Positions 19,201 through 64,000 of a stretch of DNA of 64,000 nt are shown in pieces (position 1 is the first letter of the stretch; each line of letters opens with the position of its first letter). A program made the translations under genes and the position numbers. This DNA comes from Micromonospora tarapacensis (GTDB lineage Bacteria; Actinomycetota; Actinomycetes; Mycobacteriales; Micromonosporaceae): positions 3,211,324 to 3,275,323 of the forward strand of contig NZ_JAHCDI010000004.1 of the NCBI RefSeq assembly GCF_019697375.1. The letters run 5' to 3'. The notes under the pieces were generated by a model. The model did no database searches and was not told where the DNA came from. It saw only the letters and a program-made list of their open reading frames with translations.

Positions 19201-21595
19201 GCAGATTGTGCCACCAGTACGCTCCGTCGAGCTCGCTGCCGTCGACCCATCGACTCACGGCGGTGGACCAGATGGGAAGACGGGCGGTGTGCGGCTGGAT
19301 CTCTCTCAGCGCCGCCAGGACCCGGTCGCGGATCGGGTCCATCTGCGCGGAGTGTGAGGCGTAGTCGACGGGAATCCGCCGTGCCCAGATGCCGCGTTGC
19401 GAGCAGTCGGCAAGGAACTGCTCAAGCGGCGCGACCGGGCCGGAGAGCACCACGGACGTCGGGCCGTTCACCGCCGCCAGCGCGAGGCCGTCCCCCATGA
19501 GGTCCCGCACCTCGGCCTCGGAGAGGCCGGACACCGCCACCATCCCGCCGGTCGCCGCCAGGGCACCGAGCGCCTGCGCGCGTAGGACGACGACCCGTAC
19601 GGCGTCGTCGAGGTCGAGGACACCCGCGACATGGGCCGCCGCGATCTCCCCCTGGGAGTGGCCGATGACCACCGTCGGCCGGACGCCGGACGCCGTCCAC
19701 AGCGCGGCCAGCGAGACCGCCACCGCGAACGACGCGGGCTGCACCACGTCGACCCGGGCGAGGGCCGACTCGTCAGCGAGCACGTCACGCAACCGCCATC
19801 CGGTGAGGGGCGACATCGCCGCCTCACAGGCGACCATCGACGCACCGAACACCGGCGACCTGTCCCACATCTGGAGGCCCATGCCCGCCCACTGCGCCCC
19901 TTGGCCGGCGAAGGCGAACGCGGTCGCCGGGGCCTCGATGGCGGTGCCTTTCACCACGTGCGGGACCGGTTCCCCTGCTGCCAGGGCGGCGAGCCCGCCA
20001 GCGAGGTCGCCGACGATGACGGCACGCTCGGGAAGGGCCGCCCGCGTCCGCGCGAGCGCGACGGCGAGGTCGGTGGGATCGCACTCCGAAGCCGGTTCCA
20101 CCAGGCGAGCCGCCTGGGCACGCAGGCCCGCCGCACCGTGCCCGGACAGCACCCACGCGACCGCACCGTCGAGGACCGGTGACCCGGGCACGGGCGCGAC
20201 TTCGCGTGCGGGAGGCTCCTCGATGAGGACGTGGGCGTTGGTGCCGGAGATGCCGAACGACGAGACCGCGGCCCGCCGGGAACGTCCGTTCTGTTTCCAC
20301 CCGACGGGCTCGGTCAACAGCCGCACGTTCCCCGCGGCCCAATCGACGTGTGGCGTGGGCTCGTCGACGTGCAGCGTCTTGGGAAGCAGGTTGTTCCGCA
20401 GCGCCAGGACGATTTTCATGACCCCGGCGACGCCGGCGGCAGCCTGGGTGTGGCCCAGGTTCGACTTCACCGATCCGAGCCACAGCGGACGGTCTTCGGG
20501 GCGGTCCTGGCCGTAGGCGGCGATGAGAGCCCGGGCTTCGATCGGGTCACCGAGAGGCGTACCGGTGCCGTGCGCCTCGACCGCGTCCACGTCGGTGGGT
20601 TCCAGCCCGGCGTTGGCGAGGGCCTGCCGGATCACCCGCTCCTGCGAGCGACCGCTGGGCGCGGTCAGCCCGTTCGAGGTGCCGTCCTGATTGACTGCCG
20701 AGCCGCGTACCACCGCGAGGATCCTGTGGTTCCTGCTGACCGCGTCGGATAGTCGTTCGAGCAGGAGCAGGCCTGCGCCTTCGCCCCAGCCGGTGCCGTC
20801 CGCAGCCGCCGCGAACGGCTTGCACCGCCCGTCGGCGGCGAGACCACGCTGGCGGGAGAACTCGACGAACGATGCCGGGGTGGCCATGACGGTCACGCCC
20901 CCGGCGAGCGCGAGACCGCACTCGCCCGCCCGCAGTGCCTGCGTGGCGAAATGGATCGCCACGAGGGACGACGAACAGGCGGTGTCGACCGTGACCGCGG
21001 GCCCTTCGAAGCCGAACGTGTAGGCCACCCGGCCGGTGGCGACGCTGCCCGCGGTGCCGGTGCTGAGGTAGCCGTGCACGCTCTCCGGCAGATCGCCCGG
21101 GCTCATCGCGTAGTCGTGGTACATCAGACCGGCGAAGACCCCGGTGTCGCTGCCCCGCAACGTGTTCGCGTCGATCCCGGCGTCCTCGATGGCCTCCCAC
21201 GCGGTTTCGAGCAGCAGCCGCTGCTGCGGGTCCATGGCGAGCGCCTCACGCGGACTGATGCCGAAGAAGCCCGGGTCGAAGCCGGCCGCGCCGCGTAGGA
21301 AGCCGCCCTCCCGGGTGTAGCTGGTGCCGGGCCGCTCGCCGGTCGGGTCGAACAGGTCGTCGACGTCCCAGCCACGATCGTCAGGGAACGGCCCGACGCC
21401 GTCGCCGCCGTCGGCGAGCAGCCGCCACAGCCCGGCCGGGGTGTCCACAGCACCGGAGAAACGGCAGGACATTCCGACGATCGCGATGGGTTCGCGGCCA
21501 CGCGCTCGCTCCTGCGCCAGCCTGAGGTCGGTGTCGTGCAGCTGGACGGTGACGCGCCGCAGGTACTCCCGGAGCCGTTGTTCGTTGTCGGTCAC
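10214..21595 (-). CDS. Type I modular polyketide synthase PKS-C (modules 6 and 7), interrupted by two frameshifts
   Basis: I start it at GTG 21595: GAGGAG lies four bases upstream and the N-terminus then reads [16 protein letters not shown], a typical docking helix. GTG 21607, overlapping the PKS-B stop, is the alternative. Module 6: KS, AT (GHSQG, YASH, methylmalonyl type), DH ([10 protein letters not shown]), KR ([21 protein letters not shown]). The frame is then lost near 16777; in the next frame an ACP ([11 protein letters not shown]) follows. Module 7: KS and AT (GHSVG, SHAFH, malonyl type) lie inside the 2.6-kb repeat. The frame is lost again at the G6 run 13948-13953 and resumes with [12 protein letters not shown]. 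Then come DH ([10 protein letters not shown], first-motif Gly replaced by Glu), ER ([11 protein letters not shown] near 12000), KR ([21 protein letters not shown]) and ACP ([11 protein letters not shown] near 10600). With both shifts corrected the protein is about 3,790 residues. The C-terminal tail ends in an acidic docking segment at 10214. Confidence 0.9.
13550..13552 (-). other. TTA leucine codon in PKS-C
   Basis: In-frame TTA (RRT-L-TIHS in the module-7 DH), judged in the frame that runs from the G6 site to the stop at 10214. It lies outside the large repeat, so it is independent of the one in PKS-B. Confidence 0.75.
13948..13953. other. Frameshift site in PKS-C at a G6 run
   Basis: Upstream on the coding strand the frame reads PVDWTTII. 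Downstream the expected [13 protein letters not shown] is in the next frame. Removing one base from the six-G run (six C on the coding strand) restores a continuous linker ([19 protein letters not shown]). The same run occurs at 24267-24272. Confidence 0.9.
14059..14103. repeat. 15-bp tandem repeat at the end of the module-7 AT
   Basis: Two perfect units of TGAATGTTGTTGTGG (14059-14073, 14074-14088) are followed by a degenerate third unit (14089-14103). On the coding strand they encode a His/Asn-rich run ([11 protein letters not shown]) in the C-terminal part of the AT, where ordinary ATs have no such repeat. The same array is at 24378-24422 in the second cassette copy. Confidence 0.85.
16757..16780. 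other. Frameshift region between KR and ACP of module 6 in PKS-C
   Basis: The KR frame ends sensibly at MLRRLVPAT and the ACP frame begins sensibly at [17 protein letters not shown], but they differ by one base. Adding one base to the GGGG run at 16777-16780 gives a normal KR-ACP linker ([18 protein letters not shown]). The exact site cannot be fixed within this short stretch. Confidence 0.8.
16983..17095. repeat. 113-bp identical patch in KR of module 6 (pair of 27294-27406)
   Basis: A 113-bp stretch encoding the end of the KR (from the catalytic Asn/helix region through [17 protein letters not shown]) is identical to 27294-27406 in the module-4 KR. The offset is 10,311, different from that of the large repeat, so this is a separate exchange tract. 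Confidence 0.88.
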
Positions 21596-49578: not shown

Positions 49579-50562
49579 TCACCAGCGCAGGAGGCAGGCT
49601 CCCACCGACATGCCACCGCCGAATCCCGCCAGCAGCACCAGATCGCCCCGACCGATGTGGCCCTCGCGGCTGGCCTCGTCGAGGGTGACCGGGACCGACG
49701 CGCCGCCGGTGTTGCCGTACCGCTCGACCGTGCGATGGACCTCAGCGCCGGTCAGCCCCGCCGTCTTCGCCAGGTCGTCGAGCATGACGCCGTTGGCCTG
49801 GTGCGGAATGAAGTGGTCAACCTCGCAGGTCGCGGTCCCGTGCGCCCGCAGCAGCTCCGACAGCACCGGCGGAACGTGCTCGGTGACGAACCGGCGCACC
49901 TCACGGCCGCGCATTCGGAAGAAGTTGTCACCGGCGTCCAGGGTGTCGGCGGTCGTGGGCCGGCGGGTGCCGCCGGCCGGCACACTGATCAGGTCGTGCT
50001 CGGAGCCGATGCTTCGCAGCTCGGTACCGAGAATGCCTCCACCCGGCTGGCATGACCCGAGCACGACCGCGCCGGCGCCGTCGCCGAAGAGGACCACGGT
50101 GCCGCGGTCCGCCGGGTCGAGGATGCGGGAGTAGACGTCCGCCGCCACCACCAGCGCGTGGCCGCCCGGCCGCGTGGCGAGCAGACCACGGGCCACCGCC
50201 AAGCCGTAGACGAAGCCGCTGCAGACCACGTTGATGTCCAGGCACACGGCCCGGGTGGCACCGAGCGCGTGCTGGACGAGGTACGAGGTCGGTGGCTGGG
50301 GATGGTCCGGCGTCGAGGTGGCCAACACGAGATAGTCCACCTGGCGCGCGGTGATGCCGGCGGCGGCCAACGCCCGTGCGGCCGCCCGCGTCGCCAGGTC
50401 CGACGTCGCCTCTTCCGCAGCCGCGTACCGCCGGCATCGTATGTGCGTCCGGGCGGCGATCCACTCGGGCGTGACCCCGGCCGGGCCCGCGATCTCCGCA
50501 TTCGGCACGACACGCTCGGGAACGTAGGAACCGGTGCCGAGCACCCCGACAGCTTGTCCCAC
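49579..50562 (-). CDS. Free-standing beta-ketoacyl-ACP synthase III (FabH-like)
   Basis: A 327-residue KASIII. GTG 50562 is chosen because GGAG lies six bases upstream; TTG 50574 would overlap that site. The N-terminus (VGVLGTGSYVPERVV) is typical of FabH. The catalytic triad is complete: Cys in NVVCSGF, His in FIPHQAN and Asn in RYGNTGGAS. KASIII enzymes condense an acyl-CoA with malonyl-ACP, and cluster-associated relatives can instead transfer acyl groups. Lying directly before PKS-A, which has a ligase loading unit, it may make or extend the starter acid or act as a tailoring acyltransferase; sequence alone cannot decide. It has its own upstream region with a TAGGGG pair. Confidence 0.88.
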   Translation of the reverse strand: MGQAVGVLGTGSYVPERVVPNAEIAGPAGVTPEWIAARTHIRCRRYAAAEEATSDLATRAAARALAAAGITARQVDYLVLATSTPDHPQPPTSYLVQHALGATRAVCLDINVVCSGFVYGLAVARGLLATRPGGHALVVAADVYSRILDPADRGTVVLFGDGAGAVVLGSCQPGGGILGTELRSIGSEHDLISVPAGGTRRPTTADTLDAGDNFFRMRGREVRRFVTEHVPPVLSELLRAHGTATCEVDHFIPHQANGVMLDDLAKTAGLTGAEVHRTVERYGNTGGASVPVTLDEASREGHIGRGDLVLLAGFGGGMSVGACLLRW

Positions 50563-52251: not shown

Positions 52252-53661
52252 GTGGGGCTGCTGAGTGGGCTGTCCGGGTCGACCGACGAGCGCCGGGATG
52301 CGATCCGGATCGCCGACCGGACGGTGTCCTGGGTGGAGTTGCGGCGGCTCGCCGCCGCGGTGGCCGACGATCTGGCTGGCGTGGACCGTGTGGCTGTGGA
52401 CGCGACGGCCAGCCTCGGTACGGTGGTCGGTGTCGTCGGCGCGCTGCTGGCCGGGGCGGCGGTCGTACCTGTGCCGCCCGACGCCGGGCCCACGGAACGT
52501 GAGCACATACTGCGCGACTCGGGCGCCGGGGCGTTGCTCGTGCCGGCGGACGGTGAGTGCCGGGATGCCAGCCCGGGGCCACCCGTTGTTCCGATCGACC
52601 TGAAACGGCGCTCGGACACCAATCATCCGGAGCCGGACCAGGCCGGCAGCGCACTGATCCTCTACACCAGCGGAACCACCGGCGCGCCCAAGGGCGTGGC
52701 GCTTTCCCGCCGCGCCGTCGCCGCCTGCCTGGACGGGCTCGCCGCGGCGTGGGAGTGGACGCCGGACGACCTGCTCGTGCACGGCCTGCCGCTGTTCCAC
52801 GTGCACGGCCTGGTGCTCGGCACGCTCGGCCCGCTACGGGTGGGCAGTCGGCTGCACCACGTAGGTCGGCCCCGACCCGATCGGTACGCGGCCGCCGGCG
52901 GCTCACTCTTCTTCGGCGTCCCCACAATCTGGTCCCGGATCGCCGCCGACGCGACCTCGGCCCGGGCACTGCGCTCGGCGCGGCTGCTCGTGTCGGGCAG
53001 CGCCGCCCTCCCCGCGACGGTCTTCGCCGACATCGCCACGCTCACCGGCCATCAGATCGTCGAGCGGTACGGGATGACCGAGACGTTGATCACTGTGAGC
53101 GCCAGTGCCGCCGGACCTCGCCGCCCGGGTGCCGTCGGGCTGTCGTTGCCGGGGGTGAGGACCCGCCTGGTGGACGAGCGGGGGCAGCCGGTGCCCACCG
53201 ACGGGATGGCGACCGGCGAGCTCGAGGTGTGCGGCCCGACCCTCTTCGACGGGTACCTCAACCGGCCGGACGCCGACGCGGCCACCCGCACCGACGACGG
53301 CTGGTTCCGCACCGGGGACACGGCGGCGATCGGTCCGGACGGCTGGCATCGCATCGTCGGCCGCACATCTACCGACCTGATCAAAAGCGGTGGCTACCGG
53401 ATCGGCGCCGGCGAGGTGGAGGACGCGCTGTTGGCACATCCGGGTGTCCGGGAAGCCGCGGTCGTGGGCACCCCGCACCCCGACCTCGGTCAGCAGGTGA
53501 CGGCGTACGTGGTGGGCGACGGCGTCCAGGAGCTGGACCTGATCGACTTCGTGGCCCGGCACCTGTCGGCACACAAGCGCCCTCGGCAGGTGCGGCTGGT
53601 TGACGCCCTGCCCCGCAACGCCCTCGGTAAGGTGCAGAAGAACCGGCTCCAGGCGGATTGA
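52252..53661 (+). CDS. matB: Malonyl/methylmalonyl-CoA synthetase (MatB type)
   Basis: A 469-residue acyl-CoA synthetase very like actinomycete MatB. GTG 52252 is chosen because it brings the N-terminus (GLLSGLSGSTDERRDAIR) into family register. Motifs seen: YTSGTTGAPKG (about 138-148), LPLFHVHGLVLG, LVSGSAALP, ERYGMTETL, WFRTGD, GRTSTDLIKSGGYRIGAGE and the C-terminal Lys in NALGKVQKNR. MatB enzymes ligate malonate or methylmalonate to CoA with ATP in the cytosol, so this would supply PKS extender units. It is the only well-formed plus-strand gene near the PKS block and is separated from it by the fragment zone, so it has its own promoter or belongs to an older arrangement. Confidence 0.87.
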   Translation: MGLLSGLSGSTDERRDAIRIADRTVSWVELRRLAAAVADDLAGVDRVAVDATASLGTVVGVVGALLAGAAVVPVPPDAGPTEREHILRDSGAGALLVPADGECRDASPGPPVVPIDLKRRSDTNHPEPDQAGSALILYTSGTTGAPKGVALSRRAVAACLDGLAAAWEWTPDDLLVHGLPLFHVHGLVLGTLGPLRVGSRLHHVGRPRPDRYAAAGGSLFFGVPTIWSRIAADATSARALRSARLLVSGSAALPATVFADIATLTGHQIVERYGMTETLITVSASAAGPRRPGAVGLSLPGVRTRLVDERGQPVPTDGMATGELEVCGPTLFDGYLNRPDADAATRTDDGWFRTGDTAAIGPDGWHRIVGRTSTDLIKSGGYRIGAGEVEDALLAHPGVREAAVVGTPHPDLGQQVTAYVVGDGVQELDLIDFVARHLSAHKRPRQVRLVDALPRNALGKVQKNRLQAD

Positions 53662-54000: not shown

Positions 54001-54729
54001 TCACGGCATCCGGAAGAACAGCATGGGATCGTCGCGGCCGTCGTGGATGGGCTTCAGCAGGCCGAGGCGCTGCTTCAATTCCTTGAGCTCTCGGTTGACC
54101 TGCGCGGCGGCGAGGCGGGACGGGGTGAAGTATCCGGCGCCGTTGTTCGCGAGCCAGGACAACACCACCCGGCCCTCGCTGACGGGCCAGGGCCGGCGCC
54201 TGTGGAAGACGTCGTGGACGCTCACCGTGGTCCCGGCCCGGACCGTCGGGAAGAGATCGCCGACGAACCAGCGGGCGAAGGGCGCGGTATGCGCGGCGTC
54301 GATGAAGAGGTGGTCGATGCTGTGCCGGTGACCGCGCAGCGTCTTCCGGGCGTTGCCCGGCACGAACGTCCAGCGCCCCTCGGCGAGTTCGGCGGGCACA
54401 TTGTGCCGGGCGTTGTCGATCAGGTCGTGGGTGACGAGCGCGCCGGCTCGGTTGTCGCGCAGCGCCCGCAGGATCCACGTGGTGGACCACCCGTGCAGCG
54501 ATCCGATCTCCACAACGGTCGCGGGCCGCTCCTCCCGCAGCAACAGATAAGTGATCTCTGCCTCGAGGTCGTCGACCTGGGTCTTCATCTTCGGATACGA
54601 GGTCCGAAACTCCTGCTGCTCCTTCCGTACCGTTCGGAGGTCTTCCTGGTATTTGTGGTACAGATAGGAAACGTGCTGCAGGGTGATCGCAGCACGCGAC
54701 GATTGCGCAACACCGGATGAATTGTTCAC
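54001..54729 (-). CDS. Class I SAM-dependent methyltransferase (Methyltransf_24-like)
   Basis: A 242-residue protein. GTG 54729 follows a strong AGGAGGAAGC. The N-terminal 60 residues are charged and helical (LYHKYQEDLRTVRKEQQEF), followed by the SAM-binding loop VVEIGSLHGWSTTWIL, then VTHDLIDNARHNVPAEL and an acidic motif LFIDAAHTAPFARWFVGDLFP. These features match cephalosporin-hydroxylase/macrocin-type O-methyltransferase relatives that act on small molecules in the cytosol. It is a candidate tailoring enzyme for the polyketide, but it is separated from the PKS block by about 3.5 kb and its substrate is unknown. A single TAGGGG lies about 135 bases upstream. Confidence 0.8.
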   Translation of the reverse strand: MNNSSGVAQSSRAAITLQHVSYLYHKYQEDLRTVRKEQQEFRTSYPKMKTQVDDLEAEITYLLLREERPATVVEIGSLHGWSTTWILRALRDNRAGALVTHDLIDNARHNVPAELAEGRWTFVPGNARKTLRGHRHSIDHLFIDAAHTAPFARWFVGDLFPTVRAGTTVSVHDVFHRRRPWPVSEGRVVLSWLANNGAGYFTPSRLAAAQVNRELKELKQRLGLLKPIHDGRDDPMLFFRMP

Positions 54730-55655: not shown

Positions 55656-56811
55656 ACCGGCGTGCCGCTCTGAGCCGGCTCCCCGACGGCCGCGTCGCGC
55701 CCACCGGAGCGTGGCTTCGGCACGGCCGCCGCGGGGGAGCCGACGGCGAGCCGGGCGTTCTCCTTGGTCAGGGTGAGGACCCCCCGCAGCAGCTCGACCG
55801 AGCCGCCGCCGCTGCCGGTGGTGAAGCGGTCGGTCTCCACCTCGTACACCCGCTGCGCGATGCCCAGGTGTCGCCCCCGGAAGGTGACCAGGGTCCGCAT
55901 GGCGCGCAGCAGGGCGACCGCGCTCTCCCTGACCTCACCGGTCGACTCCCGGCCGGCGACCACATCCGCGCTGAGGATCTCGGTCAGCCGGCCGCCCAGG
56001 CAGCGCCGCTCGGCCCACATCTCGTGGGTCTCCCGCCACCGGGCCGGGCTGTAGGGCACCAGGGCCCGCCAGAACGCGCCGTACTCCTCGTCCGGACGCT
56101 CGGTCGACCACAGCAGCTCGTCGAGCAGCCAGATCGGGAGTTGCGCCGCCGCCGGGCCGAACCAGGCTTCGCCGTCGACGACCACCGACTCCAGGTACGG
56201 GCGGAGCCCGTGGGCGAAGAACTCCGGGTGACCTTGCGGATCACCAGATCCATCGAGTCGACCAGGATCCCGAGGTGATCGGCGAAGGCGTGCAGCCGGT
56301 CGGCGAAGCCGTCCTCGGTCGGCGGCCGGTCCAGCAGGTCCCGCGAGATCTCCAACGCGGCGTACAGGTCGGCGAAGACCATCCGGACGGACTCCTGGAG
56401 GTAGCCCTCCTGCGGGTCGTCGGTGTAGGCCCGGCACCGCTCGTCCGGCGGGTTCCACGTGCCGTAGTGCAGCACGGTGTCCCTCGGCACCATCCGGGTG
56501 CGCTCGCCGAGCAGCCGCAGAACCGGCACCACCTGCGGCACCAGGGTGACCGGCTCGGTGTCGTGCCGGCGGATGGATCCGAGCAGGAAACCGAGGTCGC
56601 GCATCGCGGCCATGGCCTCGGCCACGTCGAGGCCATCCGCCACCGCCGGGCTGGGCAGCAGGTCGCGCAGCATCGCGGCGAGGCCGGCGACGTCCCCGGC
56701 GGCGTTCCGGCGCGCCAGGTCCCGGAGCACCACGTCCGCCGCCAGGGGGTCCAGCGAACGGATCCGCTCGACCTGCTCGGGACGCTGTTCAGGGATGTCG
56801 GTCCCGGTCAC
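55652..56811 (-). CDS. PrnB-like protein of the indoleamine/tryptophan dioxygenase superfamily, with frameshift
   Basis: GTG 56811 follows GGAAGGAG. The first frame carries DLARRNAAGDVAGLAAMLRDLLP, AAMRDLGFLLGSIRRH and VLHYGTWNPPDERCRAYTD. Homology then jumps to the next frame at PEFFAHGLRPY and continues through GEAWFGPAAAQLPIWLLDELLWS, TFRGRHLGIAQRVYE and GSGGGSVELL. This order matches PrnB (DUF1864), the heme enzyme that rearranges chlorotryptophan in pyrrolnitrin synthesis; the His in FRGRH is the likely heme ligand. Restoring one C near 56226-56228 rejoins the frames and gives about 386 residues, close to PrnB. The nearby trpA and trpB would supply tryptophan. A PrnB-type reaction on tryptophan is inferred; the true substrate is unknown. 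If the frameshift is real, the gene is dead. Confidence 0.75.
56226..56228. other. Frameshift site in the PrnB-like gene
   Basis: The first frame ends its homology at LVIRKVT and the next resumes at PEFFAHGLRPY. On the coding strand the sequence is GTCACCCGGAG; one more C gives VTPEFF, as expected for the family. It is a third case of a one-base defect in a short G/C run. Confidence 0.8.
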
Positions 56812-56846: not shown

Positions 56847-57467
56847 TCAGACGTTGAGGGCGAACGAGAGGCCCACGACGACCAGGGCCGCGCCGGTGAC
56901 GCCGTTGACGATCTTGCGTGCGGTCGGCTTCTGGAACACCCACCGGAACAACGACACCAGCAGGGCCACCGCGCCGGACCAGGCCAGCACCATCACCACG
57001 CTGACCGTGCCGAGGATGACCCGCTCGGCCATGGTCGGGTCCTCCGGCAGGAACTGCGGCATCAGGGTGACCAGGAAGACGACCACCTTCGGGTTGAGGA
57101 AGTTGGTCAGGAACCCGCGTCGGAAGGCCGTCCAGCCGAACACCCGCTCGTTGCCGGCGTCCTCGTCGCCGCCGAGCCCACCGGATTCGCTGCGAATCGC
57201 GAGCAGCGCCCGTATCCCCAGGTAGAGCAGATGGGCCGCGCCGACGAGTCGGACGGCGGTGTAGAGCTTCGGGGATGCCGCGACGATCGCGCCGATGCCG
57301 GCGATCGCGGCGATGGTGTTCACCGCCATGGCCGAGGCCACGCCGGCCGCCGCCGCGAGGCCCGGCCCGCGTCCGCCGAGCGCGGAGTGCCGCGTCACCA
57401 CGGCGAAGTCGGGACCGGGCGACATCGCACCCAGCGTCACCACAGCGGCGTACGGCAGGATCTCCAC
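56847..57467 (-). CDS. LysE/RhtB-family amino-acid exporter
   Basis: GTG 57467 gives 206 residues, the normal length for RhtB-type exporters. The N-terminal signature AAVVTLGAMSPGPDFAVVTRHS contains the conserved SPGPD. Further hallmarks are AHLLYLGIRALL and FRRGFLTNFLNPKVVVFLVTLMPQF. Five or six hydrophobic segments are evident, so it is a cytoplasmic-membrane protein. The family exports amino acids or their derivatives by proton antiport. It sits 35 bases upstream of the PrnB-like gene in the same direction, so it may export the product or excess tryptophan. Its start lies inside the ornithine-cyclodeaminase fragment, and a perfect 20-bp palindrome is located about 145 bases upstream. Confidence 0.88.
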   Translation of the reverse strand: MEILPYAAVVTLGAMSPGPDFAVVTRHSALGGRGPGLAAAAGVASAMAVNTIAAIAGIGAIVAASPKLYTAVRLVGAAHLLYLGIRALLAIRSESGGLGGDEDAGNERVFGWTAFRRGFLTNFLNPKVVVFLVTLMPQFLPEDPTMAERVILGTVSVVMVLAWSGAVALLVSLFRWVFQKPTARKIVNGVTGAALVVVGLSFALNV

Positions 57468-57571
57468 TCGCCGGCGGCCAGGGCGTCCAGGGCGTCCCGC
57501 ATGACGGTGACGCACTCGTGCGTGGGCAGCAGCTTCCGGATCTCGTCGTTGCTGAGTACGAGGATCGGCAT
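57437..57571 (-). pseudogene. Ornithine-cyclodeaminase/mu-crystallin N-terminal fragment
   Basis: ATG 57571, with GGAGA six bases upstream, opens a 44-residue frame starting MPILVLSNDEIRKLLPTHEC followed by VTVMRDALDALAAGE, the classic N-terminus of the ornithine-cyclodeaminase family. It then runs out of homology and stops at 57437, having overlapped the LysE start in another frame. The NAD-binding domain is absent. It may now serve as a translated leader for lysE. It probably arose by deletion between two genes of the operon. Confidence 0.65.
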
Positions 57572-57610: not shown

Positions 57611-57630
57611 GAGGAGTTCTAGAACTCCTC
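57611..57630. promoter_or_regulatory. Perfect 20-bp palindrome, candidate GntR operator (site 1)
   Basis: GAGGAGTTCTAGAACTCCTC is a perfect inverted repeat centred on CTAG, a tetramer that is rare in high-GC actinomycete DNA. It lies 40 bases upstream of the ornithine-cyclodeaminase-fragment ATG, where a repressor of the leftward lysE-prnB-like operon would bind. The core GTTCTAGAAC recurs at 57727 and, as TTCTAGAAC, at 61185. GntR proteins of the HutC/DasR group bind similar palindromes (for DasR, GGTCTAGACC-like sites). Confidence 0.65.
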
Positions 57631-57713: not shown

Positions 57714-58298
57714 GTGTGGACACGTCGTTCTAGAACTTTGGCGGGACAACGGGGTGGTCGATGGTGGCTGGTCCTCGCCGGCGGCGGCAGCCGCTCGACG
57801 ACCTGGCGGCAGGTGATCGCGGACGTGCTCGGCCGGCCGGTGCTACCGGTGCCGCGCGACGCGGCGGCCCACGCCGCGGCGTACGGCGCGGCGCGCTGCG
57901 GCGCTCGGCTTCTCGGTCTCGACCTGCCGCCCCCGGCCCTGGACCCGGCGCTCCTCGTCCACCCGGGGCCGGACGCCGCCGGCTACCCGGCGCTTCGCCC
58001 GGTGTGGCACACCCTGCCCGGCAACCGGGTGGACGGGATCTGGGCGGCCTGGGACGAACCGGCGCTCGGCGCCGCCCAGGCGGTGCAGCAGGCCGGCGGC
58101 AGGCAGGTCGTGGTCGGTGTCGACGGTCAGGACTTCGCCCTCGCCGAGATCAAGAAGGGCGGCCCGTTCCGGGCGACGGTGAAGCAGGACTGGGCCGCCA
58201 TCGCGCGGCGCACCACCGATCTGATCGCCGGTCAGTTCGACGGGCAGCAGTCGACCGAACGCGAGTACGCCCTGCCGGGCACGCTGGTCACCGGCTGA
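57714..58298 (+). pseudogene. Chimera of FGGY sugar-kinase C-terminus and sugar-binding-protein C-terminus
   Basis: The first half (LAGGGSRSTTWRQVIADVLGR, then AAYGAARCGARLLG and PALRPVWHTL) matches the last 80-90 residues of xylulokinase-type FGGY kinases. From VDGIWAAWDEPALGAAQA and VGVDGQDFALAEIKKGG to LPGTLVTG it matches the C-terminal lobe of ribose-type periplasmic binding proteins. The two parts are joined in frame with no linker. The kinase ATP lobe and the binding protein's N-terminal lobe and lipoprotein signal are missing, so neither function is likely. The start is unclear: GTG 57714 precedes the homology and lies across operator site 2. A deletion between adjacent genes of a sugar-uptake operon, or a misassembly, would explain it. 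Confidence 0.7.
57727..57736. promoter_or_regulatory. GTTCTAGAAC palindrome, candidate GntR operator (site 2)
   Basis: A perfect 10-bp palindrome 107-116 bases from site 1 in the same divergent region, just before the coding homology of the plus-strand chimeric frame. TTGACA at 57687-57692 could be a -35 element for rightward transcription, but no good -10 follows. Confidence 0.55.
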
Positions 58299-58322: not shown

Positions 58323-59159
58323 TCAGTGCACCAGGTTCCAGGACAGCGACATCGCGGTGGTGACCCGGTCCGCGCGGATCTGCAGCCGGTCACCGAGCAT
58401 CACCGCGCGGTCGAGCACCACCGCCTCCTGGTTGACGCCGTAGGTCAACCGGTCGCTGAGGAAGACGGGAGTGCCCGCCGCCCGCCGCAGCAGCGGGGCC
58501 AGCGTGGCGGGGAGCAGGCCGGGCTTGATGGTCTCCGTGGCCGCCGCGACGGCCACGCCGCAGATCTCCGCGAGTGCCACGTACAGCGGTGTGGTGCGGA
58601 AGTCGGCGCGCTGCACCGCGCGGGCGTACGGCGGCGCGACCCACGAGACCTGGTGCACCAGGGGCGTGCCGTCGACCACCCGGAGCCGGTGCAGACGCAG
58701 CAACCGGACGTCGTCGGCGAGACCGAGCTGCGCGGCGACGTACCGGGGGGCGCTGCGCAGCTCGGTGCGCAGCACCTCGGTGGTGACGTCGATGCCCTGG
58801 GTGTGCAGCTCGTCGGTGAGGCTGCGCAGCGTGGTCAGGCGATAGGAGGCCGGCGGCGGGGCCACGAACGTGCCTCGGCCGGCCTGCTGGACGATCAGCC
58901 CTTCCTCGCTCAACGCCTGCAGGGCCTGGCGCAGCGTCATCAGGGTAACCCCGAAGTCGCGGCACAGCTCGCGCTGCGGCGGCAGTACCTGCCCGGGCCG
59001 GTAGGTGCCGTCCTTGATCCGAGCGGCGATCTCGTCCTGGATGACCCGGTACTTGGGACGCCCACCCCGGCGGGTGCCGTTCGCCGCGACGGCCGAGGGC
59101 CAGCGGCCACCGGCGGACGGGGTGCCGGAGGACGGCGGCGCGGGGACCGGTCCGCTCAC
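58323..59159 (-). CDS. GntR-family transcriptional regulator (HutC/UTRA type)
   Basis: A 278-residue regulator. After a 35-residue Pro/Arg-rich lead, the winged helix-turn-helix is clear (YRVIQDEIAARIKDGTYRPG, LPPQRELCRDFGVTLMTLRQ, then LSEEGLIVQQAGRGTFVA). The effector domain is UTRA-like (LLRLHRLRVVDGTPLVHQVSWV to PVFLSDRLTYGVNQEAVVLD). GTG 59159 overlaps the trpA stop (GTGA), making it the last gene of a trpB-trpA-gntR operon. Proteins of this group usually repress and release DNA when a small metabolite binds. The TTCTAGAAC sites before trpB and before lysE are its natural candidate operators, which would make the circuit self-regulating; this is inferred. Confidence 0.88.
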   Translation of the reverse strand: MSGPVPAPPSSGTPSAGGRWPSAVAANGTRRGGRPKYRVIQDEIAARIKDGTYRPGQVLPPQRELCRDFGVTLMTLRQALQALSEEGLIVQQAGRGTFVAPPPASYRLTTLRSLTDELHTQGIDVTTEVLRTELRSAPRYVAAQLGLADDVRLLRLHRLRVVDGTPLVHQVSWVAPPYARAVQRADFRTTPLYVALAEICGVAVAAATETIKPGLLPATLAPLLRRAAGTPVFLSDRLTYGVNQEAVVLDRAVMLGDRLQIRADRVTTAMSLSWNLVH

Positions 59160-59959
59160 GTGGCCGACCCGGCGTCCAGGCCCGCGCGCAGGGCCGCGAC
59201 ACTCGCGCCGACCTCGGCGGGGCCACGTCCAGAGAGAACCTCACGCATGAGGCTGGACGCTACCACCACGCCGTCGGCGCACCCGGAAGCCTGCGCCGCC
59301 TGCCCCGGGGTGCTGATACCGAAGCCGAGCAGCACCGGCCGGGTCGAGTGACGGCGCAGCGCGGTGGCGACCGCGCGGGCGGAGTCGGCCAGCTCGGCGC
59401 GTTCTCCGGTGGTGCCCATGACGGTCACGCCGTAGACGAAGCCGCGGCTGCGCTCGGCGATGGTACGCAGTCGCGACGGCGCGGTCGACGGCGCGGCCAG
59501 CAGCACCAGCTCGATGCCCGCGTCCGCGGCGACCGTGGACAGCTCGTCGACCTCGTCGCAGGGCACGTCCGGCACGATCAGGCCGGAGACACCCGCGTCG
59601 GCCAGTTGGTCGCAGAACACGGTGGCGCCGTGCCGGAAGACGATGTTGGCGTAGGTCATGACGGCCAGCGGGATCCCGGCCCGGGCCCGGGCCAGTCGGG
59701 TCAGCGCATCGATCGTGGTGGCACCCAGCGAGAGCGCCCGGTGGGAGGCCTCCTGGATCGTCGGGCCGTCGAGCATCGGGTCGGAGAACGGCAGGCCCAC
59801 CTCGACCGCGTCGGCACCCGCGTCGGCGTAGGCGTGCAGGTAGTCGGTCCAGTCGGCGGTGACGCCGGCCGTCACGTACGGGACGAGCAGCGACCGGCCG
59901 GCGTCCCGCCGGTCGCGCAGGTGTGTTTCCAGGCGGCCGTACCGCTCGTGAGCGCTCAC
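59156..59959 (-). CDS. trpA: Tryptophan synthase alpha chain
   Basis: A 267-residue TrpA that cleaves indole-3-glycerol phosphate to indole. The catalytic Glu lies in [11 protein letters not shown] and the Asp in MLDGPTIQ. Further family motifs are [46 protein letters not shown] and [16 protein letters not shown] 59959 overlaps the trpB stop (GTGA), so the two subunits of the complex are translationally coupled. It lies away from any other tryptophan-pathway gene and beside a GntR regulator and a PrnB-like enzyme, so it is more likely an accessory copy feeding secondary metabolism than the housekeeping copy; the rest of the genome would be needed to confirm this. Confidence 0.93.
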
Positions 59960-61173
59960 AGCAGTTCCACCAGTTGAGCGGCGTCCTTGTCCCCGCGCCC
60001 GGAGAGCGTGACCAGCACGGTGGAGTCGGTGGGCAGCTGCGGCGTCCCGGCCTCACGCAGCACCCAGGCCAGGGCGTGCGCGGACTCCAGGGCCGAGACG
60101 ATCCCCTCGGTACGGGCCAGCCGGAGCACCGCGGCGACGACCTCCTCGTCGGTGACGGACGGGTATTCGGCCCGCCCGATGTCGGCAAGGTGGGCGTGTT
60201 CCGGGCCGATGCCGGGGTAGTCGAGGCCCGCGGAGATGGAGTGCGCCTCGAGGATCTGGCCGTTCTCGTCCTGCAGCACGCGGGACCGGTATCCGTGCAG
60301 CACGCCCGGAGCGCCGCTGCTGATCGCCGCCCCGCCGGCCGCTTCCACGCCTACCAGCCGCGCGTTGGTGTCGACGAAGCCGGCGAAGGTGCCGGCGGCG
60401 TTGGAGCCGCCGCCGATACAGGCGACGACGACGTCCGGCTGCCCCTGCGGCAGCAGCGCGGCGCACTGTTCCCGCGCCTCCTCACCGACGACGCGCTGGA
60501 ACTCGCGCACCATCCACGGGTAGGGGTGCGGGCCCATCACCGAGCCGGCGCAGTAGTGCGTCTCGTCCACCTGGGACACCCAGTTGCGCAGCGCCTCGTT
60601 GCAGGCGTCCTTGAGGGTGCGGCTGCCGCTGTGCACCGGGACCACGGTCGCGCCGAGCAGTTGCATGCGGAAGACGTTGAGTTCCTGGCGCTCGATGTCG
60701 CGCTGGCCCATGAAGACGACGCACTCCAGGCCGAGCAGGGCCGCGGCGGTGGCGCTGGCGACGCCGTGCTGACCGGCGCCGGTCTCGGCGAGCAGCCGGA
60801 CCTTGCCCATGCGTTTGGCGAGCAGGGCCTGGCCCAACACGTTATTGATCTTGTGGGAGCCGGTGTGGGCCAGGTCCTCGCGCTTGAGCAGCAACGTGAC
60901 GCCGAGTTCGGCGGAGAGGCGCAGCGTCGGCGTGACGGGGGTGGGTCGACCGGCGTAGAGCGACAGGGTGCGGGCCAGACCCGAGCGGAAGGCCGGGTCG
61001 GCCCACGCCTCCCGGAAGCCCGCCTCCAACTGCTCGCATGCCGGGACCAGCGACTCGGGCACGTATCGGCCGCCGAACTGACCGAACCGGCCGGCGCTGC
61101 CCGGGTCGGCCATCAACGACCGGCTCCGGCCGGCGACCGCGTCGACGCCGGGCGTCGAAATATCGATACTCAT
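59956..61173 (-). CDS. trpB: Tryptophan synthase beta chain
   Basis: A TrpB1-type beta chain of 405 residues that joins indole and serine with pyridoxal phosphate. ATG 61173 is chosen for GGAAG six bases upstream. Motifs: [13 protein letters not shown], the PLP Lys in [16 protein letters not shown], the catalytic Glu in [15 protein letters not shown], the phosphate loop [12 protein letters not shown], and SGRGDKD near the C-terminus. All key residues are present, so it should be active with TrpA. The CTAG-centred operator-like site overlaps the leader just upstream of its ribosome-binding site. Note that a separate TrpB2-like fragment is present at 63.4-63.7 kb. Confidence 0.94.
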
Positions 61174-61183
61174 TGCCACTTCC

Positions 61184-61194
61184 ATTCTAGAACT
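61184..61194. promoter_or_regulatory. TTCTAGAAC site before trpB, candidate GntR operator (site 3)
   Basis: The sequence ATTCTAGAACT shares the TTCTAGAAC core with sites 1 and 2. On the minus strand TTCTAGAA ends only a dozen bases before the trpB ATG, abutting the GGAAG ribosome-binding site. A bound repressor here would block the trpB-trpA-gntR transcript. The match is one base short of a perfect 10-bp palindrome. Confidence 0.55.
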
Positions 61195-61279: not shown

Positions 61280-61777
61280 TCAGGCGACGGACCGGCGCAG
61301 GTGCACCAGTCGCAGCACCGGCGAGACGGTCTCCTCGCGGTCGACCCGGTAACCGGCCGCGCGGTACAGACCGAGGAACTCCTCGCTGCGGTGGCCGGTG
61401 AACGCCTCGTACGTCGTCACGCCCGGGATGGCCTCCTCGATCGCCGCGAGCAGCCGCGGGGCCAGGCCCTGCCGACGGACGCGGGGGTGCACCACCACCC
61501 GCCCGACGTGGCACACCCCGCCGTCGACGTGCCCGCGCACCGACCCGACCACCTCGTCACCGAGCCGGACGACCAGGAACACCTGGCCGACCGGGTCGTC
61601 ACGGATCTCGGCGAGCGTCTGGGTGAGCGCCGGCAGCTGCCAGGCGTCGTACCGCTCACCCTCGATCTGGTAGCAGAGGTACTGGAGCTTCAGCGCCCAC
61701 TCCAGGTCCTCCTCCCCGGCGGGCACCACCGGTAGCTGCGCGGTGTCGGGCACGGGGGCCGGCGCGGATACGGTCAT
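61280..61777 (-). CDS. GNAT-family N-acetyltransferase
   Basis: A 165-residue protein. ATG 61777 has GAGGAGAAGAG directly upstream and overlaps the end of the enolase frame (ATGA), indicating coupling. After a Pro-rich lead, the GNAT fold is clear: [40 protein letters not shown] (acetyl-CoA pyrophosphate loop RRQGLA) and [16 protein letters not shown] near the C-terminus. It would acetylate an amine in the cytosol. With DUF1611- and enolase-type neighbours, whose relatives handle N-acyl amino acids, an amino-acid substrate is a reasonable guess, not more. Confidence 0.85.
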
Positions 61778-62679
61778 CTCTTCTCCTCTGGCAGTCGGGA
61801 TCGATGCGGGACCGGGCCGCCCGGGCACGGTTGCGGACGCGGCGTCGACGGGATCAGTCGGCGAGCGCCGGCACACCCGGGGTCGTGGGGTCCAACCGCA
61901 GTAGGTCCCCGCCGGACGCCGTCGGCGCGCACGGTCGACTCGTGCGCCGAGGCCAGGTCGGTGACGCCCTCGTCGAGCAGGACCGGAACCCCCGGGAGGT
62001 CGGCGCGGACCTCCGGCAGCAGGCGCGGATCGGCGACCGGGTCCTCCAGCGCGGTCGGGCGGACGGCGGCCACCCGGTCCCGCAGCCGGCGCCAGTCGGC
62101 GGCGTCCCAGCCCCGGTTGACGTCGACCACCACGGCCCGGTCCGGCCGTGCGGTGGCGGCCAGCAGTTCGAGCGTCGCGGCGTCCTGCGGGCCGCCGAGC
62201 TTCACCTTGAGCCGGTCGCCGGGGATCGGACCGGCGACGGCGCCCCGGGAGACCGTGCGCCACAGCCGCAGCGGGACGGGCGGGCGCAGCCCGAGAAGCA
62301 GCCACAGCGGCTGCCCGGCGACGACGCCGGCCAGATCCAGCAGCGCCATCTCGGCCAGCATCCGCGCGGTCGGCAGGCCCGCGCGCAGCGGGCCGACCTC
62401 GGTGGCTGCGGCGACCTCGGCGACGGTGGGCGCCGCCGGCGCGCCGCGGGCCGGCTCCTCGGCGGCGCCGGCGAGCATCGCGGCGGCCATCCCGGCCGCG
62501 CACTCGCCCACCACGGACGCATCCTCGTCGGTCCACGGGCCGACGGCGACCTGCCCCTCCCCCACCCGCCCGTTCACCGAGACCCGCAGGGTGACCAGCG
62601 CGACCTCGGCGACCACCGTGTGCGACACCACGAGTGGGTCGGCCAGCCGCTGTCGGACGATCTCGAAGCCGACCACCAT
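61774..62679 (-). pseudogene. Enolase-superfamily protein (dipeptide-epimerase-like) lacking its C-terminal catalytic part
   Basis: The N-terminal capping domain and the start of the barrel are present: LPTARMLAEMALLDLAGVVAG, the catalytic KxK (LKVKLGG), the metal-ligand Asp (VVVDVNRGWD), Glu (ALEDPV) and Asp (VLLDEGVTD). After HESTVRADGV the homology ends; the second catalytic Lys and the remaining strands (perhaps 70 residues) are absent, and the frame finishes with a Pro/Arg-rich tail. In the next frame LLRLDPTTPGVPALAD followed by a stop looks like an original C-terminus, which suggests an internal deletion. Start: ATG 62679, or GTG 62676 with better spacing from GGAGG. Family members racemise or epimerise amino-acid derivatives. 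Confidence 0.65.
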
Positions 62680-62685
62680 GCCCTC

Positions 62686-63723
62686 CTAGAACTCGGCGAT
62701 CAGGCCGGCCAACTCGCCGTACCCGTCCGGGGTCGGCGCCACCACGGGGCGACCGAGCCGCATGGCCAGTCGCCGCCGCTCCGCGCTCGCCGCAGCCGGG
62801 TCGAACTCCCGGGACATCGCCACCACGCCTAGCACCGTCGCCTTGCGCCGGTGCCCGGCGAGCTGCTCCAGCAGGTCGATCTCCTCGGCGACGTCGGCGA
62901 CCGCGTCGTCGAAGTAGGCCAGTCGGGAGCGGTCGAGGTCATGGCAGAACACCAGCAGATCGGGCGCGGCGCCGTGCAGCAACGCCAGGCTGACCCCGGA
63001 GTACGCCGGATGGAGCAGCGACCCCTGCCCCTCGACCAAGACGTAGCGGTGGCGCTCGGCGGCGTCGAGGACCAGCTGCTCGACGGCGCCGGCGGCGAAG
63101 TCGGCGCGGACCGCGTCGATCGCCACCCCGTCACCGGCGATGTACATCCCGGTCTGCCCGGTCGCCACGAACTGCGCCGCCAGCGAGCGGTCGACCAGCC
63201 GGTGCCACAGCTCGATCGCCGTGGTCATCTTCCCGGACGCGCAGTCGGAGCCGACGGTCAACAGCACCGTGGCGTCGAGCCGGGCGGCCGCCCCGGAGGC
63301 CACCCGCTCGGGCACCGCCCGGTGCCGCAGCTCGACGATCCGGTCCGTCACGTCGGCCAGCTCCCGACTCGGGGTGTAGTAAGCCTGGGCGACACCGGAG
63401 TTGGCCTTGTGGCTGCCGATCGGTGAGGAGCCCTCGTACTTGTAGAAGATCCGGCACCGGGTGCCCAGGGCGCGTTCCAGCGCCACCGCGCGCACCACCG
63501 GCGTCGGTCGCCAGCGGGCGTACATGTCCAGGACCTCGTCGGGGATGGGCACGAGCCGGCGGCTCTGCTCCAGCTCCTGCTCAACCAGGTCGGGTGCGAA
63601 CAGCTCGCCGAGGCTGTCGTCACCGACCGGCCGGCCACTGACCGGGTCGAGGTAGGGCTCACCCAGCTCCGGCAGGTCGGCGGTGACGTTGTACCAGTGG
63701 CGGGGGATCAACGGGGAACTCAT
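62686..63723 (-). CDS. Chimera: TrpB2 N-terminal piece fused to DUF1611 P-loop domain
   Basis: 345 residues. Residues 5-117 follow the N-terminus of TrpB2-type tryptophan synthase beta chains (PRHWYNVTADLP, IPDEVLDMYARWRPTPVVRA, FYKYEGSSPIGSHKANSG with the PLP Lys at about 106, AQAYY). There the match stops. From about residue 125 the chain follows the C-terminal P-loop domain of DUF1611 (DgcN-like) proteins: TVGSDCASGKMTTAIELWH (Walker A), FVATGQTGMYIAGDGVAIDA, VLVEGQGSLLHPAYSGVSLA. The DUF1611 N-terminal domain and most of TrpB2 are missing. ATG 63723 overlaps the microcompartment gene's stop (ATGA). Either a deletion fused two neighbouring genes, or the join is an assembly error. DUF1611 relatives are reported next to enolase-type racemases, as here. 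Confidence 0.8.
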   Translation of the reverse strand: MSSPLIPRHWYNVTADLPELGEPYLDPVSGRPVGDDSLGELFAPDLVEQELEQSRRLVPIPDEVLDMYARWRPTPVVRAVALERALGTRCRIFYKYEGSSPIGSHKANSGVAQAYYTPSRELADVTDRIVELRHRAVPERVASGAAARLDATVLLTVGSDCASGKMTTAIELWHRLVDRSLAAQFVATGQTGMYIAGDGVAIDAVRADFAAGAVEQLVLDAAERHRYVLVEGQGSLLHPAYSGVSLALLHGAAPDLLVFCHDLDRSRLAYFDDAVADVAEEIDLLEQLAGHRRKATVLGVVAMSREFDPAAASAERRRLAMRLGRPVVAPTPDGYGELAGLIAEF

Positions 63724-64000
63724 GCGGCGTTTCGGGCCAGCCCGAGGGCGTCGGCGGTGGACCGGTACGGACTGGCGATCACGTTGACGCTGATCACCTC
63801 GCCGTGCCGGGTGGCCGCCTCCGCGCCGGCGTCGATCGCCGCCTTGACCGAGGCGACGTCACCGCGCAGCAGCACGGTCACGTACGCCGACCCGATCTGC
63901 TCGACCCTGACGATCTCCACCTCGGCGGCCTTGACCATGGCGTCCATGCCGGCGATGGCAGCGGTGAAACCGCGCGTCTCCAGCGTGCCGAGCGCATTGT
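63720..64000 (-). CDS. Bacterial microcompartment shell protein (BMC domain), 5' end just outside window
   Basis: The frame enters at the right edge and reads NALGTLETRGFTAAIAGMDA then MVKAAEVEIVRVEQIGSAYV, LLRGDVASVKAAIDAGAEA and GEVISVNVIASPY. This is a complete single BMC (Pfam BMC, PduA/CcmK-like) domain lacking only the first one or two residues. Such proteins form hexameric tiles of protein shells that enclose enzymes; the pore loop here is IGSA. The short C-terminal tail (RSTADALGLARNAA) may be helical. Its stop overlaps the start of the TrpB2/DUF1611 chimera. Other shell genes and the signature enzyme, if any, must lie beyond the window. Microcompartment loci are uncommon in this kind of actinomycete. 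Confidence 0.9.
   Translation of the reverse strand, partial: NALGTLETRGFTAAIAGMDAMVKAAEVEIVRVEQIGSAYVTVLLRGDVASVKAAIDAGAEAATRHGEVISVNVIASPYRSTADALGLARNAA

Follow-up and report, generated by a model that had tools for sequence, protein, structure and literature searches.

Why should a bacterial microcompartment (BMC) shell gene stand beside a tryptophan synthase in Micromonospora tarapacensis? The question arises at the right edge of a 64,000-nt stretch of its genome (the window; G000:C4:3211324-3275323), where a first-pass annotation had described a shell gene followed by TrpB2/DUF1611, enolase-like and GNAT genes in one operon. Profile matches and spacing agree with that arrangement. We propose that it is the decayed edge of a rare BMC cluster, in whose intact copies TrpB2, a TrpB-like pyridoxal phosphate (PLP) enzyme, would be fixed to the shell and serve the synthesis of aryl-amino acids. 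We place the probability of this reading at roughly 45%.

Shell genes, a conserved core and a TrpB2 tail

The operon continues beyond the window edge. Its 5' to 3' order on the minus strand is BMC-H1, BMC-H2, PPDK_N, a tryptophan-dioxygenase-like gene (TDO), BMC-P and BMC-H3. Three of its genes match PF00936 and one matches PF03319, all above cut-off; hexameric and pentameric shell genes occur together, as is expected of a BMC locus. An orphan shell gene is rejected, because the operon goes on with BMC-P and two BMC-H genes. The rightward extension that the first-pass annotation had proposed thus yielded a pentameric and two further hexameric genes, but no tandem BMC-T gene was found. In the whole genome, PF00936 has three matches, all in the cluster, and PF03319 has one. 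BMC-H3 scores 92 bits against PF00936 (cut-off 24.5).

The cluster type is rare. Among 354 genomes of the family, PF03319 occurs in 29, at 32 places, and 30 of these were fetched as loci: the window's own, two of the same type (L011 and L033), 21 ARO-like loci (paired BMC-H genes resembling H1 and H2) and 6 others. With a BMC-H3 profile, scores above 140 bits are reached by the window genome alone in a class sample of 394 (next best, 115 bits), and by the window genome and G118 in an order sample of 397 (next best, 112 bits). A BMC-H3 protein search returned 81 matches including the query, and 24 of the 80 others are at least 67% identical. A contig scan around cluster-type TrpB2 genes kept 80 of 130 loci, some on short contigs where misses are possible. 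BMC genes adjoin TrpB2 in four of the 80, namely in Paractinoplanes pyxinae, a Pseudonocardia metagenome-assembled genome (MAG), Ruminiclostridium sufflavum and Glycomyces luteolus. BMC-P, BMC-H3, TrpB2, a DgcN homologue and a DgcA homologue form a core common to these four relatives. A close plasmid-borne TrpB2 was sought in PLSDB and rejected, as all 130 records are below 60% identity.

Around this core, P. pyxinae has H1, H2, PPDK_N, a phosphoenolpyruvate (PEP)-utiliser, HAD, TDO, hydrolase, OCD, trpAB, GNAT, LysE, luciferase-like, PrnB-like and GntR genes, an importer and an FGGY kinase. The Pseudonocardia MAG has H1, H2, trpAB, OCD, PPDK_N, PEP-utiliser, HAD and luciferase-like genes, together with kynureninase-like, TDO-like, adenylation, carrier-protein and acyl-CoA-dehydrogenase-type genes. 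Glycomyces carries UbiD, UbiX, aldolase, DHQS-II, GNAT, OCD, LysE and PrnB-like genes. R. sufflavum carries a divergent second BMC-H (27.8 bits; cut-off 24.5) and GNAT-like, aldolase, DHQS-II, adenylation, carrier-protein, dehydrogenase, UbiD and UbiX genes. This anaerobic Firmicute (locus L047) combines the same core with genes of the 3-amino-4-hydroxybenzoate (3,4-AHBA) type, with no dioxygenase match in the locus; its copy was likely acquired by horizontal transfer.

Several of these assignments hold at the level of the family or subfamily. The PrnB family (PF08933; cut-off 27) is matched in P. pyxinae (129 bits) and Glycomyces (137 bits), and the P. pyxinae protein matches solved PrnB (2v7i) with an E value of 1e-63. 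The Glycomyces aldolase passes the ADH-synthase subfamily PRK07226 (245 versus 241 bits) and fails the equivalog (222 versus 299). DHQS-II (231 versus 750 bits for the 3,4-AHBA synthases BagC/FevH), UbiD (294 versus 650 for VdcC) and kynureninase (191 versus 246) fall below their cut-offs, and a solved structural relative of the DHQS-II protein was not found. A GGIMSHTAI stretch, which we take to be the catalytic-His motif, is present in the PEP-utilisers of both P. pyxinae and the Pseudonocardia MAG.

The part of TrpB2 that may tie it to the shell is its C-terminus. In 11 of the 12 aligned cluster-type TrpB2 proteins, a variable linker is followed by a conserved module of ~50 residues. A profile of 13 tails (P0037 was excluded, and the Pseudonocardia and R. 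sufflavum proteins were added) was run on 303 proteins. Training TrpB2s score 67-91 bits (five entries, one gene twice), and the next match is L038:9324-9848 (best stretch, 29.6 bits; E 2e-9). All 71 other TrpB2s, from 76 loci, lack the tail (best score, -0.1). E. coli EutQ and EutT score 11.5 bits (E 0.0016) and 9.2 bits (E 0.009), and reversed sequences reach 6.7 bits. Across seven genomes, profile A6, which already includes the L038 tail, is strong only on four TrpB2s and the L038 protein; G174 and G271 gave no match to it below E 0.09. A tail-restricted protein search returned two close TrpB2s and nothing more. In the predicted TrpB2 structure, of which only the tail was used, residues 481-530 form two helices (pLDDT 75-89) after a linker below 50. 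The L038 protein has 174 residues, no Pfam match and the same module at its end; L038 is a different BMC locus, with class III aminotransferase and aldehyde dehydrogenase genes.

The N-terminus of Salmonella EutQ links shell to cargo, with helices H1 and H2 facing the shell, in the portion of PMC12487888 used here. As described there, the adaptor is likewise a short helix-strand-helix module with an ITPxA-type motif, and the profile match is weak. The cluster module differs in being C-terminal, on TrpB2, rather than N-terminal, and no other Eut enzyme is found in the cluster. The link to EutQ is suggestive and no more. Judged from its sequence, the tail is likely a shell anchor, a candidate targeting module that is kept in relatives and lost from the window copy.

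A candidate regulon and a proposed pathway

The tryptophan synthase genes and the regulator that the first-pass annotation had placed next to the operon are indeed there, and they share the cluster's palindromes. After GNAT, the minus strand carries trpB, trpA and a GntR/UTRA gene, from 61113 down to 58323. Window trpB (TIGR00263, 540 bits; cut-off 392) and trpA (TIGR00262, 212 bits; cut-off 102) belong to the TrpB and TrpA equivalogs, and trpB is 82% identical to its P. pyxinae cluster homologue. The regulator is above cut-off for PF07702 and PF00392 and 58% identical to that of the P. pyxinae cluster. A second trpA (G000:C1:63005-63745), beside a trpB-like match (C1:63825-65012), presumably belongs to the housekeeping tryptophan synthase. 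The TDO gene is a member of PF03301 (126 bits; cut-off 34.9) and does not reach the equivalog TIGR03036 (152.5 bits, and 170.6 in P. pyxinae; cut-off 390.7).

The palindrome AGTTCTAnAAYT, with at most one mismatch, occurs at five places in the 83-kb joined stretch, every one within the cluster. It is taken as a cluster element because of this clustering, not because of a comparison with shuffled sequences. At the same stringency, the 38.9 kb of P. pyxinae has three sites, one in front of BMC-H1, one in front of trpB and one in the stretch separating GNAT from LysE. Allowing two mismatches adds six places. The TTCTAGAA core is intact in two of them, which immediately precede the ABC transporter; the remaining four look like chance. 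In the window genome, trpAB and the dioxygenase-like gene appear to share one candidate regulon.

TrpB-type enzymes convert serine to an aminoacrylate and then add a nucleophile. In intact copies, TrpB2, probably fixed to the shell interior by its C-terminal module, would couple the serine-derived aminoacrylate with an aromatic amine, a phenol or indole from neighbouring enzymes. UbiD may decarboxylate 3,4-AHBA to 2-aminophenol in two clusters, and TDO and kynureninase may yield anthranilate in one other. The aryl-amino acid would next undergo N-acylation and epimerisation by DgcN-, DgcA- and GNAT-like enzymes and PrnB-like oxidation by other cluster enzymes, and LysE or ABC pumps would export the product, while the shell would retain reactive intermediates. 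The sequences themselves establish which shell and other genes are present, the common core, the tail of TrpB2, the palindromes and the damage to the window copy; for this scheme we infer encapsulation, substrates, reaction order, product and anabolic direction.

Biosynthesis is favoured because tryptophan synthase and TDO fall in one regulon and because PrnB-like, carrier-protein and exporter genes are present; adenylation and ADH-synthase-like genes are further biosynthesis-type genes of the relatives. The first-pass annotation had imagined a compartment for N-acylated or D-amino acids. The DgcN/DgcA resemblance makes such chemistry plausible. What the intact relatives suggest, however, is a broader pathway of aromatic chemistry, probably biosynthetic, in which TrpB2 is full-length; the earlier reading as a whole is partly supported.

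It is a tentative suggestion, with the odds somewhat against it, that these clusters form a BMC class for a specialised metabolite, in which shell-anchored TrpB2 joins aminoacrylate to aminophenol, anthranilate or indole. Known BMCs mostly degrade small carbon sources; the established example of an anabolic one is the carboxysome. If the suggestion is true, the compartment would be anabolic without being related to carboxysomes, and a shell cluster with tryptophan synthase, tailed TrpB2, PrnB-like, carrier and exporter genes would bring specialised metabolism within the range of BMC functions. Cargo targeting could be tested directly through the TrpB2 tail, and the window genome would be an example of such a cluster with the shell kept and the chemistry largely lost.

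Several observations weigh against shell-anchored biosynthesis. Foremost is the importer and sugar-kinase set that adjoins the P. pyxinae cluster (RbsA-like ATPase, permease, binding protein and FGGY kinase), which fits catabolism. One cluster TrpB2, P0037, has no tail, and the EutQ match is weak (11.5 bits). A four-sequence tail profile met only chance-level matches among solved structures (at most 15.9 bits, mostly histones), and confidence in the TrpB2 model as a whole is low (mean pLDDT 64). DgcN, DgcA, TDO, kynureninase, DHQS-II, 3,4-AHBA synthase and the adenylation domain are all under curated cut-offs. The C-terminus of P0037 is unrelated where the tail is expected, perhaps through a frameshift; the protein is on a 378,689-base contig, the same figure as is given for the BMC-H3 relative P0124.

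These genes can also be read as a catabolic BMC that serves the uptake of an aromatic glycoside, polyol or tryptophan derivative, its shell, as has been suggested for ARO, confining a toxic intermediate of the aminophenol or anthranilate type. Such a role would explain the P. pyxinae importer and kinase, with two-mismatch palindromes in front, and it agrees with the dioxygenase-like and kynureninase-like genes and with the resemblance of H1 and H2 to ARO shell proteins. However, for growth it would be futile to keep a dedicated tryptophan synthase in one regulon with the dioxygenase. Synthesis would also be the better fit for the carrier-protein, adenylation, PrnB-like and exporter genes, and no aldehyde dehydrogenase is present among the ORFs (open reading frames) scanned. 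We consider a catabolic role unlikely.

Lesions in the window copy

The TrpB2, DUF1611 and enolase genes, which the first-pass annotation had listed, are broken in this genome. Cluster proteins of P. pyxinae served as the reference, and 17 kb of the window genome was searched. The TrpB2/DUF1611 gene is a chimera, with TrpB2 residues 1-118 followed in frame by a DgcN-like part from residue 116 (junction near 63363-63373). Its N-terminus scores 26.5 bits against PALP (PF00291; cut-off 35) and 139 bits across residues 5-125 against PRK12391 (cut-off 366), and its DUF1611 (PF07755) P-loop domain scores 218 bits (cut-off 25). Only 118 of ~530 TrpB2 residues are kept, and the DgcN part lacks its N-terminal domain. 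A conserved TrpB2-DUF1611 fusion family is rejected, as the window protein alone has both PF00291 and PF07755 among the 120 of 2270 matches listed. The PPDK_N gene is a second fusion: its match ends at residue 275, where a HAD remnant takes over from residue 187.

The enolase-superfamily gene (MR_MLE_C, 44 bits; cut-off 29; MR_MLE_N slightly below cut-off) matches DgcA up to residue 240 of 324, homology ending near 61918-61858. It lacks the C-terminus and a lysine-bearing stretch kept in all four relatives. Neither truncated protein reaches its NCBIfam equivalog (DgcN, 169 versus 480 bits; DgcA, 40.5 versus 400). The PrnB-like gene is split between two reading frames: one piece covers residues 18-196 and the adjoining one residues 197-372, scoring 55.8 and 24.5 bits against PF08933, one above and one below the cut-off of 27. 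OCD is gone wholly or for the most part, and the TrpB2 core and tail and the PEP-utiliser are absent; neither PEP-utiliser nor hydrolase was matched within the 17 kb. That the lost pieces lie elsewhere in the genome is rejected for TrpB2 (49% identity), PEP-utiliser (36% across 103 residues) and OCD (35%), whose only matches in the rest of the genome are generic paralogues.

Open frames are kept for H1, H2, H3, BMC-P, TDO, TrpA, TrpB, GNAT, LysE and GntR. GNAT (PF00583, 39 bits; cut-off 20.7) and the LysE-type gene are 55% and 57% identical to their P. pyxinae homologues, the latter of which scores 122 bits to PF01810. The junctions from BMC-H3 through TrpB2/DUF1611 and enolase to GNAT measure -4, +6 and -4 bases, and so two of the three overlap, in line with the overlaps at most junctions reported earlier. 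In-frame junctions may have preserved downstream translation. At the sequence level, the window copy is decayed, with shell genes kept and several enzymes lost.

Were the copy functional, the two chimeras would be new fusion enzymes, and the shell would house a simpler tryptophan-linked pathway. Both chimeras are in frame, the palindromes are kept, and reading frames are open for all four shell genes as well as for the regulator, GNAT, trpAB and the dioxygenase-like gene. Even so, the short TrpB2 part, the missing DgcN domain, the enolase without its conserved stretch, the frameshifted PrnB-like gene and the lack of a second such fusion among the matches listed make this improbable. Similarly improbable is an assembly or sequencing error that fused separate genes and created the lesions. 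Several lesions do lie within about 11 kb, and PrnB changes frame through a point event that costs it no residue, but the contig spans 5.6 Mb, the frameshift is outside any long homopolymer, and the lost parts are not elsewhere in the genome, generic paralogues excepted. Decay of a once intact cluster accounts for the lesions in our reading. Transposase genes lie just to the right (L004:6720-7694 and L004:11413-12459, Mutator type and DDE_Tnp_1_4; an L004 position is the window position minus 63176) and might have helped this decay.

Known systems and neighbouring genes

Standard cargo was not met among the ORFs scanned, in agreement with the first-pass annotation. The right-hand side has 100 ORFs of at least 80 aa, and 20 of them were scanned with Pfam; no aldehyde dehydrogenase was found among these 20, and no RMM, Pdu or Eut signature enzyme among them and the left-hand genes scanned. 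A LigB ring-opening dioxygenase with aldehyde dehydrogenase, as in ARO, was likewise not found among the cluster ORFs scanned, and RMM, Pdu, Eut or ARO membership is rejected.

A tree of 21 shell proteins gives indicative groupings, with 7 of its 18 inner branches open and several long rows. The five H3 proteins stand together (91/84), as do the three H1 proteins (95/89); H1 and ARO Ha, with a very long R. sufflavum branch, lie on one side of a 97/99 split, and H2 pairs with ARO Hb (82/82). Three of the 21 ARO-like loci were examined with Pfam, and LigB stands beside the shell genes in each; L037 also has a second LigB, an HMGL aldolase, an acetaldehyde dehydrogenase and an aldehyde dehydrogenase. 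ARO (PMC10470539) is similar in being actinobacterial, in its related H1/H2-type shell proteins and in its aromatic, possibly aminophenol chemistry; it differs in having two LigB subunits and an aldehyde dehydrogenase where the cluster has TrpB2, DgcN-like, DgcA-like and trpAB genes. In favour of a variant of ARO, the BMC-H pairs in ARO-like loci share 48-58% identity with H1 and H2 and group with them, and a route through 2-aminophenol can be conceived for two clusters. Such a variant is nevertheless highly improbable: no LigB was met in the cluster, and H3 and the TrpB2-DgcN-DgcA core are particular to it.

The cluster shares with the BUF types (BMCs of unknown function) of the 2021 catalogue (PMC8217296, in the part used) shell genes without aldehyde dehydrogenase, and it is possibly an existing type such as BUF2 or BUF3. 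The word "tryptophan" is nowhere in the main text, supplements aside, of that catalogue or of the ARO paper. Literature searches, in which most papers were judged from listings and the catalogue's supplements were left unread, found no paper on a tryptophan-linked or specialised-metabolite BMC. The DUF1611 gene adjoins an enolase-superfamily gene as in the DgcN-DgcA D-glutamate pathway, but the window proteins are far under both equivalog cut-offs and lie in a shell cluster with TrpB2. The P. pyxinae homologue resembles the pyrrolnitrin enzyme PrnB; the window gene is frameshifted. According to PMC7500099, Desulfatiglans phosphorylates aniline or phenol with a PEP-synthase-like enzyme that consists of two proteins. 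The cluster resembles such phenylphosphate or phenylphosphoamidate synthases in spreading PEP-synthase-like functions over two proteins and in the putative catalytic-His motif of the P. pyxinae PEP-utiliser; the window genome is without one partner.

Table 1. Features of the cluster, in window positions; those above 64000 lie to the right of the window
Feature	Position	Strand	Basis or remark
PrnB-like gene	55691..56763	-	frameshifted at about 56227
LysE-type exporter	56847..57467	-	homology to P. pyxinae gene
Possible OCD remnant, 32 residues, weak	57476..57571	-	46.9% identity, E 0.002
Perfect palindrome AGTTCTAGAACT, candidate GntR operator	57615..57626
Palindrome, candidate GntR operator	57726..57737
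Remnant, FGGY sugar kinase end joined to sugar-binding protein end	57768..58298	+
GntR/UTRA regulator	58323..59159	-	PF07702, PF00392
trpA, tryptophan synthase alpha	59156..59959	-	TIGR00262
trpB, tryptophan synthase beta	59956..61113	-	TIGR00263
Palindrome upstream of trpB, candidate GntR operator	61183..61194
GNAT acetyltransferase	61280..61777	-	PF00583
DgcA-like enolase-superfamily gene	61774..62679	-	MR_MLE_C
TrpB2/DUF1611 gene, 345 aa	62686..63723	-	PALP, PRK12391, DUF1611 profiles
BMC-H3 shell gene, 94 aa	63720..64004	-	PF00936; start 4 bases past window end
BMC-P, pentameric shell	64257-64009	-	PF03319
Palindrome	64352
TDO gene	65150-64368	-	PF03301
PPDK_N gene	66208-65225	-	Pfam scan
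BMC-H2	66573-66190	-	Pfam scan
BMC-H1	66896-66576	-	Pfam scan
Palindrome	66973
Luciferase-like gene	starts 67102	+

None of the genes seen flanking the P. pyxinae cluster is a polyketide synthase. Left of the cluster in the window, where there are also other very long minus-strand ORFs, the ORFs scanned include a modular type I polyketide synthase gene (KS-AT-DH-KR; 16328-21595). KAS III, AMP-ligase and methyltransferase genes are likewise left of the cluster, at 49579-50562, 52252-53661 and 54001-54729.

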